From: Pseudodesulfovibrio nedwellii
GTDB lineage: Bacteria > Desulfobacterota > Desulfovibrionia > Desulfovibrionales > Desulfovibrionaceae
Assembly (NCBI RefSeq): GCF_027923765.1
Contig: NZ_AP026709.1
Span: 367,501 to 431,500, forward strand
Direction: 5' to 3'
DNA: 64,000 nt
Part shown: positions 26,821 through 56,891 of the stretch, in pieces
Position numbering within the stretch: the stretch's first letter is position 1
Layout of the letters: each line of letters opens with the position of its first letter
Notes under the pieces: generated by a model
What the model was told of the DNA's origin: nothing
Database searches by the model: none
What the model saw: the letters and a program-made list of their open reading frames with translations, nothing else
Program-made: the position numbers and the translations under genes

Positions 26821-28872
26821 GTGAGCAAGAGCAACGCCCCCTCGGCGAAGGTGCTCGGCAACCTTCGCAATATTGGTATCATTGCGCATATTGATGCGGG
26901 AAAAACAACGCTGACAGAGCGAATTCTTTATTATTCAGGAAAGATACACCGTATTGGTGAAGTTCATGAAGGCACGGCGACCATGGACTACATGCCTGAA
27001 GAGCAGGAACGCGGTATTACCATCACTTCGGCGGTGACTTCCTGTCAATGGGATCCGTGCATGATCAATATCATTGATACACCAGGGCATGTGGATTTCA
27101 CCATTGAGGTGGAGCGCTCGTTGCGAGTTTTGGATGGTGCCGTTGGTGTTTTTTGTGGTGTGAGTGGTGTGGAGCCGCAGTCTGAAACGGTTTGGCGGCA
27201 GTCTGAATCCTATTCAGTCCCAAAACTTGCTTTTGTTAATAAAATGGACAGATTGGGTGCTGATTTTGATGCCGTGCTTGACTCCATGGTTCAGAAACTC
27301 GGAACAAATCCGTTGGCCATTCAATATCCTGATGGAGCCGGGCAGGATTTCACCGGTGTTTATGATCTGGTGAGCATGCAACGGCTTGAATTCGATCAAG
27401 ACACCAAGGGTGTAAATTTTTCTTCTCGAGATTTGACTGAAGACGAGGTGGATCGACTCTCTCCGTGGCGTGAAAAACTTATTGAGGTCGCTGCTGATGA
27501 AGACGAGGAAATTCTAGAGCTGTATCTGTCGGGTGAGGATGTCCCAGCTTCACAGATTCGTGCGGCTTTGAGAAAGGCGACGTTGGCTCGGAAGATCGTT
27601 CCGGTACTGGTTGGTTCGGCTTTGAAAAATATTGGCGTGCAACCGGTGTTGACCGCTGTATGTGACTATTTGCCCAGCCCGTTAGAAGTGCCGGTTGCCG
27701 AGGGAGTGAATCCAAAGGACAAGACCAAGCAGTCTTTTGAGGTTTCGCATAAGGAGCCGTTGTCTGCCCTTGTCTTTAAGGTTACTCTGGATTCTGGACG
27801 AAAACTTGCCATGATGCGTATGTATTCCGGTAAGATAAGCGCTGGTGATACCGTTTATAACGTGACACAGGATCAGCCTGAAAGGGTGGCCCGTCTGTTC
27901 CGGTTGCATGCTGGACGCAAGGAAAAGATTGAGAGTGCGTATGCCGGGGATATGGTGGCTGCCGCTGGGATGAAATTTGCGAGGACTGGCGACACGCTGG
28001 CAACCAAAGAAGCCCCTATTCTTTTGGAGCAGATTACTGATTACAAACCGGTTATCTCTTTGGCCATTGAGCCGCGCAATTCCGAAGAAGGGGATAAGCT
28101 CGATGAAGTTTTGGATAAATATTTGTTGGAAGACCCGACTCTTGAGTTGAAACGTGATGAAGATACGGGGCAGATTGTTTTGTCCGGTATGGGTGAACTT
28201 CATTTGGAAGTTATTCAGGAACGGCTGAAACGTGAGTATAAACTCGAACCCAGAGTCGGTAAGCCGCAGGTGGTTTATCAGGAAACTGTGACCGGCAAAG
28301 GTAAGGGGACTGGTGAATTCAACCGCGAATTAGGCGAGGTTGTTCATTATGGCGCGGTTGATTTAGCCGTGGAGCCCATGGGTCGGGATAAAGGTCAACA
28401 GATCTCTATGGAAGTCGACATCGCAGAATGGCCTGCTGCGTGGCTTGAGGCTGTGGAAGACGGTATCTCTGACAGTCTGCAAAGTGGTGTCATCCGTGGG
28501 TATCCGGTTCAGGATGTCCGGGTTAGAGTTTTTGGTATGAAGCGGCGGGATGGAGAATCCAGCCCCGTGGGTTACCGTATGGCTGCCGCTATGGCCCTCA
28601 AGGAGGCCCTTGAGCAGGCAACGCCGAGGTTGATGGAACCTATCATGTGGGTAGAGATCAGTGTGCCTGAAGATTTTGTTGGTGATGTGGTCGGTTTGCT
28701 CGGGTCCAAAGGTGCCAAGATCGAGAATATGATAGATCGAAATGGGCAAAAGGTAGTTCAGGGACTCGCGCCATTGGGCAAGCTGTTTGGATTTTCCACT
28801 GACCTTCGATCCGCCACGCAAGGCAGGGCAGGATTTGTTATGAAATTTTCACGTTTTGATGTGTTGGAGTAA
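26821..28872 (+). CDS. fusA: Elongation factor G, probably a second (EF-G2-type) copy
   Basis: A 683-residue translational GTPase. G1 is AHIDAGKTT (about 21-29), the switch I region is [10 protein letters not shown]-like, G3 is DTPGHVDF and G4 is NKMDR. Domains II to V follow in order, including the [17 protein letters not shown] and GMGELHLEV blocks of domain III. It is not beside rpsL, rpsG or tuf, so it is probably the paralogue, used for ribosome recycling or stress. That is inference. GTG 26821 follows GGAG. The gene is 2 nt after the unrecognised gene. Confidence 0.88.
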
Positions 28873-28875
28873 CTC

Positions 28876-29403
28876 TTGAGTGACCTGAGTCGTCATACCC
28901 CTCGCGATAAAAAAAGTAATAGAGACTGGTGGACTGGTAGCAAACGGTGGATACGGTATTGGTGTCTTCGTTTAATGCGTCAGAATTCGTCGCCGAAGAA
29001 TTTGGCTGCGGCCTGTGCTCTTGGGATGTTTATTGGTGCTATGCCTATCATCCCGTTTCAATCCGTGGTTGTCATTGCCTTGGCTTTTGCCATGCGAGTC
29101 AACAAGTTGGCTGCATGGCTCGCGACTTGTTATTCGAACGCTGCGACTATGGTACCTTTTTACTATTTCCTTTTTATTGTAGGGAGTACGGTAGCTCCGT
29201 TCGATAATATTGTTTTTGATCCTCAACATTTGGAAATGACCCAGTTGATTGCCGCCGGGTGGAAAGTCTTTGCCGTCATGTTTATAGGCGGATTGGCTTT
29301 TGGTATTCCGGCCACAATCGCTACATATTTTATTTCTTTGTTCGTCATCAGGCGGTATCGCGAACGTCGTGCCATTCGTATGTTGCGTAATAAGTCCGGT
29401 TGA
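28876..29403 (+). CDS. DUF2062-family membrane protein
   Basis: A 175-residue protein with a basic N-terminus and three to four hydrophobic segments. The block SPKNLAAACALGMFIGAMPIIPFQ (about 38-61) is typical of DUF2062. The function is not established. The start is TTG 28876 after GGAG. It follows the EF-G gene by 3 nt and ends in a strong terminator, so the bamD-to-28876 set is probably one transcript. Confidence 0.82.
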   Translation: MSDLSRHTPRDKKSNRDWWTGSKRWIRYWCLRLMRQNSSPKNLAAACALGMFIGAMPIIPFQSVVVIALAFAMRVNKLAAWLATCYSNAATMVPFYYFLFIVGSTVAPFDNIVFDPQHLEMTQLIAAGWKVFAVMFIGGLAFGIPATIATYFISLFVIRRYRERRAIRMLRNKSG

Positions 29404-29437
29404 TAATTTGAGTAACTTTTCATGATTCCATTTGTGA

Positions 29438-29471
29438 CGCCGCAAGCTTTTGCTTGCGGCGTTTTTTTTTA
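29438..29471 (+). terminator. Terminator of the bamD/EF-G run
   Basis: The perfect stem CGCCGCAAGC/GCTTGCGGCG with a TTTT loop is followed by about ten T. Confidence 0.95.
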
Positions 29472-29573: not shown

Positions 29574-31646
29574 ATGTTTATCGGACCCGTGGGGATGATA
29601 ATTTGTGGTGTTGCCTTATGTGGCATATTCGCGGCCGCAACAGCTATCGGTGGATGGTTGGCATATGGTATCGGTGTCCTTTGCGTTTTGGCTATTACCA
29701 GTCTTGTAGGATTTATGCATTCCAAGTATCGGAAACGGATGAAGGGAGTCCTTGAAGAAATTGTGAACTGTCGTCTTCTTGACGCTGATATTGCAGGAGA
29801 ATTTGGTGGGGCTTTGGGGCAGTGCGCGGAGGCCATGTGTGCTGTTCAAAAGCAGGCTGATTTTTTTGAAGGAGCTTTCCATGAGCTCGGAAGTCCGGCT
29901 CTTGTGTGTGATTCTGATGGCAGAATTATCCTTGCTTCTCAGGCTATGTTGGAGATGGTCAGAAAAAGAGCTGAACAGGTGGTCGGCAAGACTGTCAGTC
30001 AGGCGCTGTACAGTCAAAATGGTGTTTCTTTGACCGAGAAGGCGCTTAAGCTTGGTAAACCGCGAGTGGATAGCGTTGATTTGGTTTTGTGGGATAAAAG
30101 AGAAATTTCGGTTCAGCTTTTCATTAGTTTTATTCATGATCGAGAGGGAGTCATTGTCGGTGCGGCTACATCGTTTATTGATATGACCGAGCAGGTGGAA
30201 AATCATCGAAAGATTCAGCAGCAACAGAAGCGTATGACTCAGGCGGGCGAACGGATCAGCAGTTTAGCTGAACATGTGGCGTCTGCTACGGAGTTATTGT
30301 CCGCTTCCGCTGACGATCAGGCGCAAGGGGCGCAGAAGCAACGCAAGCAAACTTCTGCCGTGGCCCTGTCCATGGAGAATATGACCGAAACCGTGATTGA
30401 AGTCGCGAGGAATGCCACTGCGACTAGAGGGGCCGCAGATGAAGCTAATACATCCGCGACTGAGGGTGTTGCCATGGTGGACAAAGCTGTGGTGGCTATT
30501 AATCAAGTGTCAAATGAGGCTGTTGAGCTTGAGCAGGAAGTCGGCAAGTTGAATATGCAGGCCGGTGAAATTGGACAAATTATCAGTGTTATTAATGATA
30601 TTGCAGATCAAACGAATTTACTTGCTTTGAACGCGGCTATTGAGGCTGCTCGAGCAGGAGAGGCGGGACGAGGATTTGCTGTAGTGGCAGATGAAGTTCG
30701 CAAGTTGGCAGAAAAGACCATGGATGCAACTCGTGAAGTGGAATCAGCCATTGGAATGATTCAGACTCGGTCTCAAAAAGCAACGACATCCATGCGCGCA
30801 ACGGCAAAACAGGTGGCCGAAAGTACGGATCTTTCCAACAAGGCTGGTGAGACGTTGCAGCAGATCATGGTGAGTATTCAAGATATGGTTGAGCGTGTAG
30901 CTGAAATTGCCACGGCAGCCGAACAACAGTCCGCAGCGGCTGAAGAAGTTATGCACAGTGTCGAGGAAATTGCGGTTATCGCTGAGGATGCAGATGAAGC
31001 AGCGGGGCAGGCGGCCAATGCAACTCGGGATATGGCAGAATTGGCTCGCGATCTCTTGAGCGTATCGCAGGAATTTAGAGATGGTGATGGTGATATGGCT
31101 TTGCGAGAGTCTGAAAGCGAGATGAAGGGAGTTCTTCCCCTGATAGCCCAAAAGTATGTCTTGCGAGAATATGGTGAGTCGTTGCATGCCGGTATGCTGA
31201 AATCAATGGGCAATCCTGTGTTTTTATCTACGGAAAGTTATCCAGATCAGGTTCTTATGCAAATGGCAGAATTCGTTTCGAAGTCCGTTGGGGTTAAGTC
31301 TCGTGATTTCTTCCTTGGCCTTGGTAAGTTTTCTGTTGAGCAGTTTAATAAAATGTACCCGGGGCATTTTCGTGATGAGTCGTTGAAAGATTTTTATTTA
31401 CGTATGAATGATGTTCATTCGCAGTTGACCAAGACTCAGCCAGGGATTAAACCTCCCAAATTCACCTATGAGGACAAGGGCGACATATTGTTTATGAATT
31501 ATCGTTCTGGTCGTGGGCTGTTTCATTATTTTGAAGGGATACTTCTTGGTTCGGCGCAATTTAAAGGCGAGAAAGTGAATGTCGTTATAAAGCCTTTTGA
31601 CGAGGAAACGGCTCGGGCAGAAATATCATTTCTTGGCAAAGTGTGA
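29574..31646 (+). CDS. Chemoreceptor with PAS domain and C-terminal H-NOX heme domain
   Basis: A 690-residue methyl-accepting protein. Two adjacent membrane helices (about 3-45) with almost no periplasmic loop are followed by a PAS domain at about 95-205 ([16 protein letters not shown]). The cytoplasmic signalling hairpin follows ([18 protein letters not shown] near 345), and then a C-terminal H-NOX (HNOB) domain at 517-690. H-NOX marks are the MKG opening, the proximal heme ligand His615 ([10 protein letters not shown]) and the YxSxR motif Tyr643-Ser645-Arg647. Tyr652 aligns with the Tyr140 that holds O2 in the Thermoanaerobacter H-NOX. The domain should bind heme and sense O2 or NO. It lies 138 nt before cheA. 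Confidence 0.93.
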
Positions 31647-31784
31647 TCAAGAATGTCTTTTTGAAAAGATTATAATGGGCTATTCGGTTTTTCGTGAGTG
31701 ATATAGAGTAAGAAAATAGAAGTTACGGACTTCGAATTTGATAGTGAATTTTCATATATCGACGTGATTTCAGGAGAGTGCCGG

Positions 31785-33977
31785 ATGTCAGATGATCTGA
31801 ACAGGCAGATATTCAAAGAGGAAGCATACGACCTTTTGCGTGAGTTGGAAGGTGCATTGCTGGAGCTCGAAGAGACTCCAGATGATATGGATCTGGTGAA
31901 CCAGATTTTCCGTGCCTTGCATACGATTAAAGGCTCTGGATCCATGTTTGGATTCGATGATATCGCCGGATTTACGCATGAGGTTGAGACGATTTTTGAT
32001 ATGGTCAGAAATGGCGACATTGAAGCGACGTCTGTTTTGTGTGGATTGTCTCTTCAATCCCGGGATCACATCAGGAGCATGCTTGATGCTGACGACGAAG
32101 GGCCTGTGGATACGGAAAATATGGAAGCAATCCTTCAGGGGTTGAAAGATTTCGTCGCGAGTTCGAGTGATGAAGCTGTTGAAGAAAGCGAAGAAGCCGA
32201 GTCGGTTCCTGAGGAACCAGAGACCGATGAGTCAGAGGATGAGTCTCATAGTCTGAAAAAATTTACAATTCTTCTGAAGCCTGATGGTGAAGGCGAAGTA
32301 GACGTCGAGTCTGTCGAGACTTTTTTTGAGGAATTGGACCGTTTGGGCGAATTGTCCGTCAAGTCCAAGCATGTTGATACCGGTGCAGGATGGGAACTCC
32401 TCTTGGCAACCGAAGTTGACAAGGACAATGTGGAAGATGTCTTTTTCTTTCTGAATGCCAATGTGTCGGTTGAGGTGAGCGAATCCGGCTCCATTCTTTC
32501 TGAAGAGAAGGAGCCCGAAATAGTTGTCTCACCTCCAGTACCGCCAGCATCCTCACTGGCTTCAAATACGGTTTCTTTTACGGGTGATGACTCTGAACCC
32601 GATGCTGTTCCCAAAATCGGTGAAATTCTCGTGGAGAACGGCGATCTGAGTCAAGAAGATATTCATGCCGCTTTGGAGAAACAGAAGACTAAGAATGACA
32701 GGCCTTTGGGGCAGATTCTTGCTGAGGAAGGTAAGGTCTCCAAGGCAGCAGTCAACAAGGCAATCAAGCGTCAGGGAGAAGTCAAGGAGCGGGAAGTCCA
32801 TAAGAAGCGGCAAGAGGCGATGTCTAGTATTCGTGTGGCTGCTGACAAATTGGATTACCTCGTGGACCTTGTGGGTGAATTGGTCATTGTTCAGGCGCAG
32901 ATATCTCAGGTTATCAGTGAGCGGAGTGATCCTACTCTGACGCTGCTGGCCGAGGAATTAGAGCGATTGAGTGATGAATTACGGGATTCCACTCTTGGAA
33001 TCCGCATGCTTCCTATCGGAACATCATTCAGTAAGTTCAGGCGGTTGGTGCGCGATTTATCTGCTGATCTCGGCAAACAGATAGGCTTGTCCACCAGTGG
33101 AGCCGAGACTGAGTTGGATAAGACGGTCATTGAGCGTTTGGGTGATCCTTTGGTCCATCTGCTCCGAAATAGCATTGATCATGGCATCGAGTTACCTGAC
33201 GTTCGAGAAGCTCAGGGCAAACCGCCTCAGGGTACGATCACGCTTGCTGCTGAGCATTCCGGTGGAGAAGTGCTCATTCGTATTACTGACGACGGTAAGG
33301 GAATGAGCAGCGATATGATCCGCAAGAAAGGGATTGAGCGCGGGCTGATTTCCAAGGATGCGGAGTTGACCGAAAAAGAATTGCTCAAGCTCATTTTTGA
33401 ACCCGGTTTTTCGACGGCTCAGGAAGTGACCAACGTTTCTGGTCGTGGTGTGGGGATGGATGTGGTGAAGCGGGCTATTGATTCTTTGCGTGGGACCATT
33501 GATATCGATTCAAAACCCGGCATTGGTACCTCTCTCATCATTAGATTACCGTTGACTTTGGCAATCATCGATGGCTTACAGGTTCAGGTAGAAAATGAAT
33601 TTTATGTCATTCCGCTGTCTCTCGTGGAAGAATGTGTTGAATTGACGCGGGCTCAGGTGGAAGAAAGCGATTCTGGACAGCGTATATTGCACCTTAGGGG
33701 TGAAATCGTTCCCTATATTCATATCCGCGATTGGTTTGATGTCGAAGGCGACAACCCTCCTATTGAGCAAATTGTCATTACTGGTGTAGAGGGAAGTCGT
33801 GTTGGTATTGTCGTAGACACTGTCATAGGTGAACATCAGACTGTTATTAAAAGCCTTGGTCGTGTATACAAAGACGTAGAAGGTATTTCTGGCGCAACAA
33901 TCAAAGGAGATGGCTCCATTGCACTGATATTGGATGTTCCTGGCTTGGTCCGACGTGTTGTTGCCGAGTCCAAGTAG
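31785..33977 (+). CDS. cheA: Chemotaxis histidine kinase CheA with MshEN-like insert
   Basis: A 730-residue kinase. P1 phosphotransfer domain, His46 in HTIKGSGSMFG, occupies about 1-110. An alpha/beta domain at about 155-235 (LKKFTILLKPDGEGEV) replaces classical P2. Residues 277-331 hold two MshEN-type repeats (KIGEILVENGDL and RPLGQILAEEGK, each ending in a Gln 24 residues on). P3 follows (ADKLDYLVDLVGEL), then the HATPase (NSIDHGIE, DDGKGM, GRGVGMDVV) and the CheW-like P5 domain (GDGSIALILD). There is no receiver domain. ATG 31785 follows AGGAGA. Confidence 0.95.
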   Translation: MSDDLNRQIFKEEAYDLLRELEGALLELEETPDDMDLVNQIFRALHTIKGSGSMFGFDDIAGFTHEVETIFDMVRNGDIEATSVLCGLSLQSRDHIRSMLDADDEGPVDTENMEAILQGLKDFVASSSDEAVEESEEAESVPEEPETDESEDESHSLKKFTILLKPDGEGEVDVESVETFFEELDRLGELSVKSKHVDTGAGWELLLATEVDKDNVEDVFFFLNANVSVEVSESGSILSEEKEPEIVVSPPVPPASSLASNTVSFTGDDSEPDAVPKIGEILVENGDLSQEDIHAALEKQKTKNDRPLGQILAEEGKVSKAAVNKAIKRQGEVKEREVHKKRQEAMSSIRVAADKLDYLVDLVGELVIVQAQISQVISERSDPTLTLLAEELERLSDELRDSTLGIRMLPIGTSFSKFRRLVRDLSADLGKQIGLSTSGAETELDKTVIERLGDPLVHLLRNSIDHGIELPDVREAQGKPPQGTITLAAEHSGGEVLIRITDDGKGMSSDMIRKKGIERGLISKDAELTEKELLKLIFEPGFSTAQEVTNVSGRGVGMDVVKRAIDSLRGTIDIDSKPGIGTSLIIRLPLTLAIIDGLQVQVENEFYVIPLSLVEECVELTRAQVEESDSGQRILHLRGEIVPYIHIRDWFDVEGDNPPIEQIVITGVEGSRVGIVVDTVIGEHQTVIKSLGRVYKDVEGISGATIKGDGSIALILDVPGLVRRVVAESK

Positions 33978-34005: not shown

Positions 34006-35070
34006 ATGCGTAAGATTCGTGTGTTGATTGTCGATGACTCTGCTGTTGTCAGGCAAACCTTGGAAGATATTCTTTCTTCTGATCCGCAGATTGAAATCAT
34101 GGGAACGGCTATCGATCCCTATGTTGCCGCTGAGCGGATGAAAAAAGAAATTCCTGACGTGATTACTCTCGATATTGAGATGCCGCGGATGGATGGTCTG
34201 ACTTTCTTGAAAAAGCTCATGAAGCAGCACCCGGTCCCAGTGGTGATTTGCTCTTCAGTTGCGGATAAGGGGACTGATAATGCGCTTAAGGCACTTGAAT
34301 ACGGTGCCGTTGAAATTATCACCAAGCCCAAAGTCGGCACTAAGAAGTTTTTGGAAGAGTCGAGTATTCGTCTTATCGACAAAGTCAAGGCAGCAGCCAT
34401 GGCTCGGCCAAAGGCGATCAAGAAAGCTCCGGCCATCAGAGTGAGTCCGAAGCTTTCAGCTGATGCCGTTATTCCCAAGGGGACAGTGAAAAATCTGTCC
34501 GCAACGGAAAAGATATGTTTGGTTGGAGCTTCAACCGGTGGGACGGAAGCCCTCAAGGTCTTTTTGGAGGCTCAACCCGTCGATTGTCCTCCCATTGCCA
34601 TTGTGCAGCATATGCCCGAACATTTTACCAAGGCTTTTGCCAATCGATTGAATTCCATATGTCAGATCAACATCAAGGAAGCCGAGGACGGTGATCCTGT
34701 AGTACGTGGACAGGCTCTAATCGCTCCGGGTGACAAGCATATGCTGCTCAAGCGAAGCGGTAGCCGCTATTATGTTGAAGTCAAGGATGGCCCTTTGGTT
34801 TCTCGGCATCGTCCCTCTGTTGATGTACTTTTTCGATCAGGTGCACGGTATGGCGGGAGCAACGTGGTTGCAGCCATCATGACCGGTATGGGTGACGATG
34901 GTGCAAAAGGAATGAAAGAATTGAGTGAGGCCGGGGCGTATACCATTGCCCAGGACGAAGCTAGTTGTGTGGTCTTTGGTATGCCGCAGGAGGCTATCAA
35001 ATTGGGAGGCGCACAAAAGGTGCTTTCACTGACTCGTATAGCAGGAGAGATCGTCCGTGCATGCGGCTAG
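34006..35070 (+). CDS. cheB: Chemotaxis response regulator protein-glutamate methylesterase
   Basis: A 354-residue CheB that demethylates and deamidates chemoreceptors when phosphorylated by CheA. Receiver domain: Asp10, Asp11 and phospho-acceptor Asp56 ([11 protein letters not shown]). Esterase domain: Ser176 (GASTGG), His202 (QHMPEHF) and Asp297 (MGDDGAKGM). It is 28 nt after cheA. No cheR, cheW or cheY lies in this window, so those parts must be encoded elsewhere. Confidence 0.96.
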
Positions 35071-55166: not shown

Positions 55167-56891
55167 ATGATGATGCGGAAAAGTGGCAAAGTAGCGGTAA
55201 TTGCAGCAGTCTTTCTTGTTTCTGGAATTCTTTCTGTAGGTGAAGCTTTGGCTGTGGAGAGTCTTGCAAAGGTAACAATTTTGTCAGCTGAAGTTGTCAG
55301 ACTGCACTGGCTTTTGGGAGTCGGTGGAATTTTGAGTGTGTGTACCTGTATTGTGTGTGTGCTTTTTTACAGAAGAATTGTGAGTAATAAATACAGTGCA
55401 TTGTTGAATTGTTTAGAATTGGTTGTGCAAGGGAAGTGGCATTCAAATCTACAGGTTCATAAGAATGACGTTTTTGGTAGTTTGTATAGAGATATAAACC
55501 AAATTGTTAAGTACATTGGTGGCTTAGAAAAGGGGATTTTTGATACGCAGAATGCGCTTCAAGTGGCCGAGGGAAAGACTGATAAAGCCATTGAAAATTC
55601 TATTATGGCAAGGAAGCACGGGGAAAATGCTCGATGTCAGGGGCTTTTGTCAGCAGCCGAAACAATGGAATTGTCGTTACAGAGTATTCGGGATCAATCC
55701 AATCAGTTGGATAATGCAATTTCTAGAGCGAGTGACGGGGCCATCAGGCAGCAGCACATCGTATCAAGCGCTGTTTCGGCGACAGAGCAGATGAATAGTG
55801 CCGTGGCAGAAACGGCCGAGAATGCCGCAGCGGCGGCCTCTGGTGCGGAGTTGGTTATGGAACGAGCCTCATCAGGGGCTTCTGTTGTCACACGGACTCG
55901 TGATGCCATCGGGTCTGTTTCGAAGAATTCTCAGGCTTTGGTCGAGAGCGTGGCAGGTCTTGGCGCTCAGGCTCACGGTGTAGGGACTATTATGGGTGTT
56001 ATTTCTGATATTGCTGATCAGACAAATCTGTTGGCGTTAAACGCAGCAATTGAAGCAGCTCGAGCAGGAGATGCCGGACGTGGCTTTGCAGTCGTGGCCG
56101 ATGAAGTCCGTAAACTTGCGGAGAAGACCATGGAGGCTACCCGTAATGTCGGCTTGGCTATCGAAGGTATTCAGGAGCAGGTATCAGAGACTATTGAAGG
56201 CGTGCAGGGAATGGCTGGACTTGCTGATGATGCTGCCGGCTTGGCTGATGAATCTGGCGCTGCTTTGGAGGAAATTGTGACATATTCAGGAGTGAGTGCT
56301 GGACAGATCAGTGCCATTGCCGCAGCAGCGCATCAGCAGTCTATTTCTTGTGAAGAGGTCAATCGTACTATCTTTGAGATTCATGGAATTTCTACAGAGA
56401 CTGGGCAGGGCATGGTTGATGCAGCTGATACCGTTGCCCTTTTGACTGAGCGAGTAGAGGATTTGGCGACTATGACGGGAGTTTTTCGTTTGGTTGGGCA
56501 TGGCCGTGTACAGGCTGTCATTGAAGACTTGTCAAAGGCCACAGATGTGCAATCCTGTGAACGTTTACGGCAGGAAGATGCCATCCGGAGGACGTTACAT
56601 GCAAATGAATTTCTTGAATTAATGTATGTTACTGATTCAAGAGGCATGCAGGTTGTTAGCAATATGGGTGGATTTGTTTCGAATTATTCAGAAGATGCTT
56701 CAGCATTCGGTGCGGATTGGGGATCTCGTCCATGGTTCATGGAAGCCATGGCGACCAGCACCTTTTTCGTCTCTGATGTGTATACTTCGTCGGCGTCAGG
56801 TGAGAGTTGCATCACTGTATCCAGTCCATTTTTTAATATAGGAGGGCGGGTACTTGGAGTTATCGCCGTAGACGTCCGTGTTGCTGTTTAG
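55167..56891 (+). CDS. Chemoreceptor with C-terminal Cache/PDC-like domain
   Basis: A 574-residue methyl-accepting protein. An N-terminal signal or TM segment (about 8-29) and a second span (about 47-67) flank only about 18 residues outside. A HAMP-like region and the signalling hairpin ([18 protein letters not shown] near 292) follow. After it, about residues 465-574 form a PDC-type sensor: [20 protein letters not shown], then [20 protein letters not shown] and [13 protein letters not shown]. In most receptors this domain is periplasmic and N-terminal. Here it should lie in the cytoplasm. The stop overlaps the convergent EamA gene by four bases. Confidence 0.9.

Follow-up and report, generated by a model that had tools for sequence, protein, structure and literature searches.

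In the window, a stretch of 64,000 nucleotides from the genome of Pseudodesulfovibrio nedwellii, one gene encodes what is, judged from its sequence, a chemoreceptor (MCP) with a predicted cytoplasmic H-NOX domain of the distal-Tyr class at its C-terminal end. The C-terminal order is the rule among the H-NOX receptors of the order and is not peculiar to the protein of the window. We regard it as likely that the whole protein is a membrane-anchored chemoreceptor whose tail H-NOX senses O2, and also NO, and feeds CheA in the avoidance of air.

Layout of the receptor gene

The positions of the receptor gene, its parts and its neighbours are collected in Table 1. A preliminary description of this DNA had placed a complete H-NOX domain at the C-terminal end, behind a PAS domain and the MCP hairpin, and had suggested a search with the HNOB profile and a structure prediction as checks. 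Both were run. The tail matches HNOB (PF07700) with 108.5 bits against a curated cut-off of 25.5, and its predicted fold is a complete H-NOX fold; the best match, by sequence as well as by predicted fold, is the H-NOX of Thermoanaerobacter (Caldanaerobacter) tengcongensis (Tt; 1u55/1u4h). The hairpin was recovered by its profile (7.7e-47), as was the PAS domain, for which BvgS (6zj8, E 0.006) is the single, weak solved relative. The very short loop of the predicted transmembrane (TM) hairpin supports the cytoplasmic placement of the H-NOX that had been proposed. No hemerythrin domain (PF01814) was found in the receptor by profile scan.

One overlapping stretch resembling methylation sites was found by pattern scan, using what we take to be the consensus. 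A CheR-docking pentapeptide is absent from the C-terminal end, which reads ...FLGKV; only some MCPs carry such a Tar/Tsr-type pentapeptide, and it is not required for being an MCP. The full-length structure prediction, made from an alignment of 4-5 rows, is as a whole too poor for use and places a helix, at low confidence, up to residue 502.

Table 1. Features of the receptor gene and its surroundings (positions in the window)
Feature	Position	Strand	Size or basis
EF-G-like gene, conserved upstream neighbour	26821..28872	+	
DUF2062 gene, conserved upstream neighbour	28876..29403	+	
Terminator-like hairpin, 12 pairs then T run, upstream of receptor	29436..29463	+	hairpin scan
MCP-H-NOX chemoreceptor gene	29574..31646	+	690 aa
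Two predicted TM helices, residues ~1-19 and ~29-47, very short loop, then KYRKR	29574..29714	+	Kyte-Doolittle scan
PAS domain, residues 109-206	29898..30191	+	profile call
MCP signalling domain, residues 287-468, with the conserved tip of the hairpin at residue 358	30432..30977	+	profile call
Methylation-site-like stretch, residues 446-456	30909..30941	+	pattern scan
Linker, residues 503-516, from end of last bundle helix to H-NOX	31080..31121	+	low-confidence full-length model and tip-to-H-NOX spacing
H-NOX domain, residues 517-690	31122..31643	+	profile, alignment, predicted fold
Ser587, position of Tt Asn74	31332..31334	+	alignment: Thr 86, Ser 11, Ala 1 (n=98)
His615, predicted proximal heme ligand	31416..31418	+	alignment: His in 97/98
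YxSxR motif, 643-647 (Y643/S645/R647)	31500..31514	+	alignment: 97/98, one truncated
Tyr652, position of O2-stabilising Tt Tyr140	31527..31529	+	alignment: 95/98; 2 Phe, 1 truncated
cheA, likely start ATG 31785	31764..33977	+	
cheB	34006..35070	+	

Distribution and domain order

A profile search found HNOB in 98 of 297 genomes of the order and in 31 of the 35 genomes of the genus, the window's own included. The four without it are G007, G010, G008 (82% complete) and G014 (81% complete). The DNA around the matches was read in all 98 genomes of the order, and in 95 of them a single frame carries MCP sequence followed by the H-NOX. The window and 90 of the 97 other genomes show the MCP hairpin signature ahead of the H-NOX in frame, and no more than 16 residues follow the H-NOX match; one of these is G655, whose H-NOX runs off the contig. 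Four further genomes have MCP sequence ahead of the H-NOX in frame, namely G654 (hairpin partly N), G676 (50 N inside the MCP) and G090 and G530 (contig starting inside the MCP).

There are three exceptions. The H-NOX of G618 is stand-alone and lacks the distal Tyr. In G492 (L209 2398-3270, minus strand) the C-terminal part of an MCP and a Tyr-bearing H-NOX occupy adjacent frames 12 bases apart, either by gene fission or by an assembly frameshift. G080 (L078 6048-6826, minus strand) has a lone H-NOX frame that is truncated before the distal-Tyr part and shares 4 bases with a single-domain hemerythrin gene.

Among 395 sampled genomes of the phylum, six from outside the order have HNOB, always in stand-alone frames of 186-246 aa. 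The single N-terminal H-NOX receptor whose DNA was read is the clostridial L113 (Acetoanaerobium), which runs H-NOX, TM, TM, MCP and was the one H-NOX record found by tblastn among plasmid records. The contrast with N-terminal H-NOX receptors drawn in the preliminary description holds: the order of Tt and L113 is reversed here. In a tree of H-NOX domains the C-terminal and N-terminal Tyr domains fall together, opposite the stand-alone ones, with support of 87/71 on 40 of 108 rows, long branches and a midpoint root; because of this weak support, the branches and the root, a single origin of the Tyr H-NOX is not relied on here. Separately, a contig titled Planctomycetaceae (L034) encodes a receptor identical in 701 of 704 residues to that of G012, a member of the genus; this MAG contig looks mislabelled or contaminating. 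The closest named match to the window's receptor, from a Pseudodesulfovibrio MAG, has 99% protein identity.

The predicted heme pocket

The pocket was compared in an alignment of 98 C-terminal domains, the window's included, from 97 genomes, two of which lie outside the order sample. It agrees with the earlier assignment of His615, of YxSxR at 643-647, of Tyr652 to the position of Tt Tyr140, and of Ser (Ser587) to the position of Tt Asn74. The Tyr652 position holds Phe in G018 and G030 and is missing in the truncated G655; that of His615 holds Tyr in G030. The distribution of Thr and Ser at the Asn74 position (86 and 11 of 98) makes Ser587 a trait of the family. At the position of Tt Trp9 (Tt numbering), the receptor has Ala525 and none of the 98 domains has Trp, which is present in L113. 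The tail pocket, as far as an alignment can tell, thus keeps the putative O2-stabilising Tyr but has neither the Asn nor the Trp that the clostridial type shows, and its O2 affinity may be below that of Tt owing to the changes at these two positions.

The distal Tyr is found in both N-terminal MCP-fused H-NOXs examined (Tt and L113) and in none of six aligned stand-alone H-NOXs, five from other families of the phylum and that of G618, which have Leu (3), Met (2) or Val (1) there; a seventh, L121, was left out. The only further separate H-NOX frame with the Tyr, that of G492, comes directly after an MCP frame. Two sequences depart from the pattern: G018 (L077) has Phe for Tyr652 and, by alignment, Ala at the Asn74 position, and G030 (L075) has Tyr in place of His615 and Phe in place of Tyr652. 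The Phe at 652 in both, with the Tyr at 615 in G030, suggests that the heme site is dispensable in some species.

The altered Asn74 and Trp9 positions, which could weaken O2 binding, might also be read in favour of a receptor that is mainly a sensor of NO: a Tyr-type H-NOX binds NO as well, and a sulfate reducer beside denitrifiers may avoid or track it. The Tt protein itself binds NO, CO and O2, and the available text of one paper treats its role as an O2 sensor as not demonstrated (PMC9814294). We nevertheless consider a principal role in NO sensing unlikely, because the distal Tyr is kept in 95 of the 98 domains and, in the accessible parts of two reviews, separates O2-binding from NO-selective H-NOXs (PMC8738867, PMC12329717), and because relatives carry an O2-binding hemerythrin in the same tail slot.

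Other sensors at the MCP tail

Hemerythrin was searched for in 28 genomes. MCP-hemerythrin fusions occur in 10 of the 12 tested genomes of the H-NOX-less genus g41, the other 2 having no hemerythrin match, and MCPs with hemerythrin tails are present in both species without the H-NOX receptor (G007 and G010). When 30 hemerythrin loci were read by pattern, the MCP signature stood before the hemerythrin motif in 21 and was lacking in 6; the pattern left L235 and L236 unassigned and was ambiguous for L227. The window's own genome has four hemerythrin frames, 143-327 aa long. The two kinds of tail sensor do not exclude each other, for five genomes (G488, G394, G024, G012 and G031) have an H-NOX receptor and a hemerythrin receptor together.

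In a second MCP of the window (55167-56891, plus strand) the hairpin is followed by a domain that resembles Cache/PDC (PF22673; 35.2 bits against a cut-off of 27). It is probably cytoplasmic there, which is odd for a Cache fold. L148, another MCP of the same genome, has a dCache domain in front and a PDC-like tail. Together with the H-NOX receptor, these two are the 3 of 23 MCP frames that extend more than 200 residues beyond the hairpin tip.

Gene neighbourhood and probable loss of the receptor

The order EF-G-like gene, DUF2062 gene, receptor, cheA, cheB is complete in 29 of the 31 H-NOX-bearing genomes of the genus (window included), and in the two remaining ones the neighbourhood is cut by contig ends. 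Outside the genus this arrangement does not hold throughout: in many members of the family the receptor lies apart from cheA or at a distance of a few kb. Three terminator-like sites were found in the region scanned against 4.2 expected by shuffling, and the one upstream of the receptor has much the longest stem. It would end the upstream genes, so that a transcript of receptor, cheA and cheB probably begins at the receptor. In the whole genome of the window there are 23 MCP frames and three CheR matches.

In G007 and G010 the neighbours and cheA-cheB are present, with no receptor between the DUF2062 gene and cheA; the profile search found no HNOB anywhere in their genomes. In a tree of EF-G, CheA and CheB (32 rows) both are nested among receptor-bearing species, and the outgroup, G040, is also without a receptor at that place. 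The receptor-less locus as the ancestral state is rejected because of this nesting, which argues for loss. Since cheA-cheB remain without the receptor in these two species, CheA is not dedicated to it and serves other receptors too.

The CheA sequence contains, at residues 284-337, a predicted MshE-type c-di-GMP-binding motif (NCBIfam NF053729; 45.2 bits, cut-off 38), with two tandem units between the phosphotransfer and dimerisation parts. Among 14 CheA relatives scanned, chosen as four pattern-positive and ten pattern-negative, 8 score above the cut-off, 3 just below it (34.8-36.3) and 3, G007 and G010 among them, have no match at 1e-6. A chemotaxis kinase that responds to c-di-GMP would be worth a study of its own.

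Module spacing and proposed signal coupling

The H-NOX begins 158-164 residues after the hairpin tip in all 95 rows measured (160 in 59 rows, 159 in 20), three of the 98 rows having been skipped for want of a readable tip. Rigid helical coupling was considered and set aside: most rows have a spacing of 159 or 160, yet differences of single residues occur, and these do not point to a helix that is rigid and continuous. The N-terminal half is more variable. A TM hairpin with PAS is shared by the window's receptor, L066 and L187; L037 has a large region between two TMs and a HAMP domain, L178 is of the same type by its HAMP, and L040 has no recognised domain there. Among five relatives scanned, MCP and H-NOX were present in all five and PAS was not recognised in L040, L037 and L178. 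MCP and H-NOX are thus the constant unit, and the N-terminal half is probably a separate, exchangeable input. L037 (5810-8500, minus strand) is a second H-NOX-tailed receptor of G031, with no cheA within the 10 kb read around it.

The near-constant spacing after the last bundle helix could fit an H-NOX that binds gas and modifies adaptation, through the access of CheR/CheB to the methylation helices, or the placement of the receptor in the array, PAS being the real input. That reading is quite unlikely, as it gives the leading part to the domain that three of the five relatives lack in recognisable form. The loss of the His615 and Tyr652 equivalents in G030 and of the Tyr in G018 might speak for an H-NOX that has no functional heme site and is a vestige or a structural element; this is scarcely credible with His kept in 97, YxSxR in 97 and Tyr in 95 of the 98 domains and a fold predicted to be complete.

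The cytoplasmic domain of an MCP is an antiparallel hairpin. Its C-terminal end therefore adjoins the start of the first helix and, in this receptor, PAS, which puts the tail H-NOX at the input end. The preliminary description had held that coupling must differ from that of N-terminal H-NOX receptors. This stands in part: the H-NOX is on the usual input side after all, and what sets the receptor apart from sGC and the Tt type is the junction with the effector, which is made at the N-terminus, that is, at the N-terminal lobe, of the H-NOX. According to structural work on H-NOX, the N-terminal lobe shifts relative to the C-terminal one upon activation; through the linker this could exert or relax a pull on the last methylation helix.

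Our preferred reading is an O2-sensing receptor. It builds on what the sequences show of domains, residues, gene order and conservation and on the predicted fold; heme and O2 binding, the coupling path, adaptation and the sign of the response we infer as follows. The receptor would be anchored in the membrane, with the gas sensor on its cytoplasmic tail. Ferrous heme would be held by His615 and YxSxR, and O2 bound there would be hydrogen-bonded by Tyr652; NO and CO would also be ligands. Binding would shift the two H-NOX lobes, and the N-terminal lobe, which the linker of ~14 residues connects with the last MCP helix where this ends beside PAS and the start of the bundle, would pass the movement on as a change in bundle packing, and so to the activity of the CheA encoded just downstream. 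CheB and one of the three CheR proteins of the genome would adapt the receptor, and the likely output is that cells swim away from O2.

A wider proposal, which we put forward tentatively and as a single whole, is that the cytoplasmic MCP tail of Desulfovibrionaceae might take gas or redox sensors (H-NOX, hemerythrin, perhaps PDC/Cache) as interchangeable modules, that the H-NOX signal might leave through the N-terminal lobe into the last methylation helix, opposite to sGC and N-terminal H-NOX receptors, and that O2 might be bound in a pocket of Tyr with Thr/Ser rather than of Tyr-Asn-Trp.

Meaning and comparison with known systems

The receptor belongs to a known class of sensors, from which it departs in the order of its domains; this variant is well conserved and common in the family. 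The order reported for O2-type receptors in the available text of a review is reversed in the H-NOX bearers of one family and in those of a second family of the order. This reversal is kept at near-constant spacing, and kin carry the unrelated hemerythrin at the same place. In sulfate reducers the receptor is a candidate for the avoidance of air; cells to which air is harmful can probably use it to keep clear of air, and it is present in most of the genus. It also lends itself as a natural test case for the way in which a gas sensor controls a chemoreceptor from the tail, a question that the accessible literature leaves open for DcrH, and natural variants are at hand: two species without the receptor, one without the His and Tyr, and one without the Tyr alone.

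We found no printed description of a C-terminal H-NOX on an MCP in searches of open-licence literature, which most subscription journals fall outside. The 2003 survey that reportedly named the HNOB domain may already show the C-terminal architecture.

Distal-Tyr H-NOXs of obligate anaerobes are described, in the parts of two reviews available, as forming stable oxy complexes and being fused to MCPs, probably for O2 chemotaxis (PMC8738867, PMC12329717). The receptors of Tt and L113 resemble the window's in having such an H-NOX on an MCP, and L113 also shares the short TM hairpin without a periplasmic domain. They differ in having the H-NOX at the N-terminus and Asn in the pocket, with Trp too in L113, whereas the window's type has it at the C-terminus, with Ser/Thr and no Trp. 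By the accessible text, O2-type H-NOX chemoreceptors carry the effector C-terminally (PMC8196705); in the window's receptor the H-NOX, residues 517-690, comes last. The stand-alone H-NOXs of the phylum (L114, L115, L117, L118, L123 and L192) share HNOB, the proximal His and YxSxR with the receptor but lack both the MCP fusion and the distal Tyr.

Tail sensors of other kinds are known. TlpD has a CZB sensor after its MCP domain, as the available text describes it (PMC13001251), and this placement is what TlpD/McpA-type receptors have in common with ours; CZB, however, is zinc-binding, and TlpD is soluble. DcrH of D. vulgaris, a related sulfate reducer, is the nearest precedent in function; it has a C-terminal hemerythrin with an O2 Kd of 0.3 uM (PMC9388753), and in the passages available negative aerotaxis is proposed for it with the coupling unknown (PMC9388753, PMC13401364). 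DcrH binds O2 in a cytoplasmic domain at the C-terminal end of an MCP, as the window's receptor would; unlike the latter, it uses an unrelated diiron fold and has a periplasmic domain and HAMP in front, and the accessible part of its description mentions no PAS. In its presumed working the receptor is comparable to DcrH, with an H-NOX like that of Tt as the tail sensor, and by its order it does not belong to the N-terminal H-NOX receptor type.
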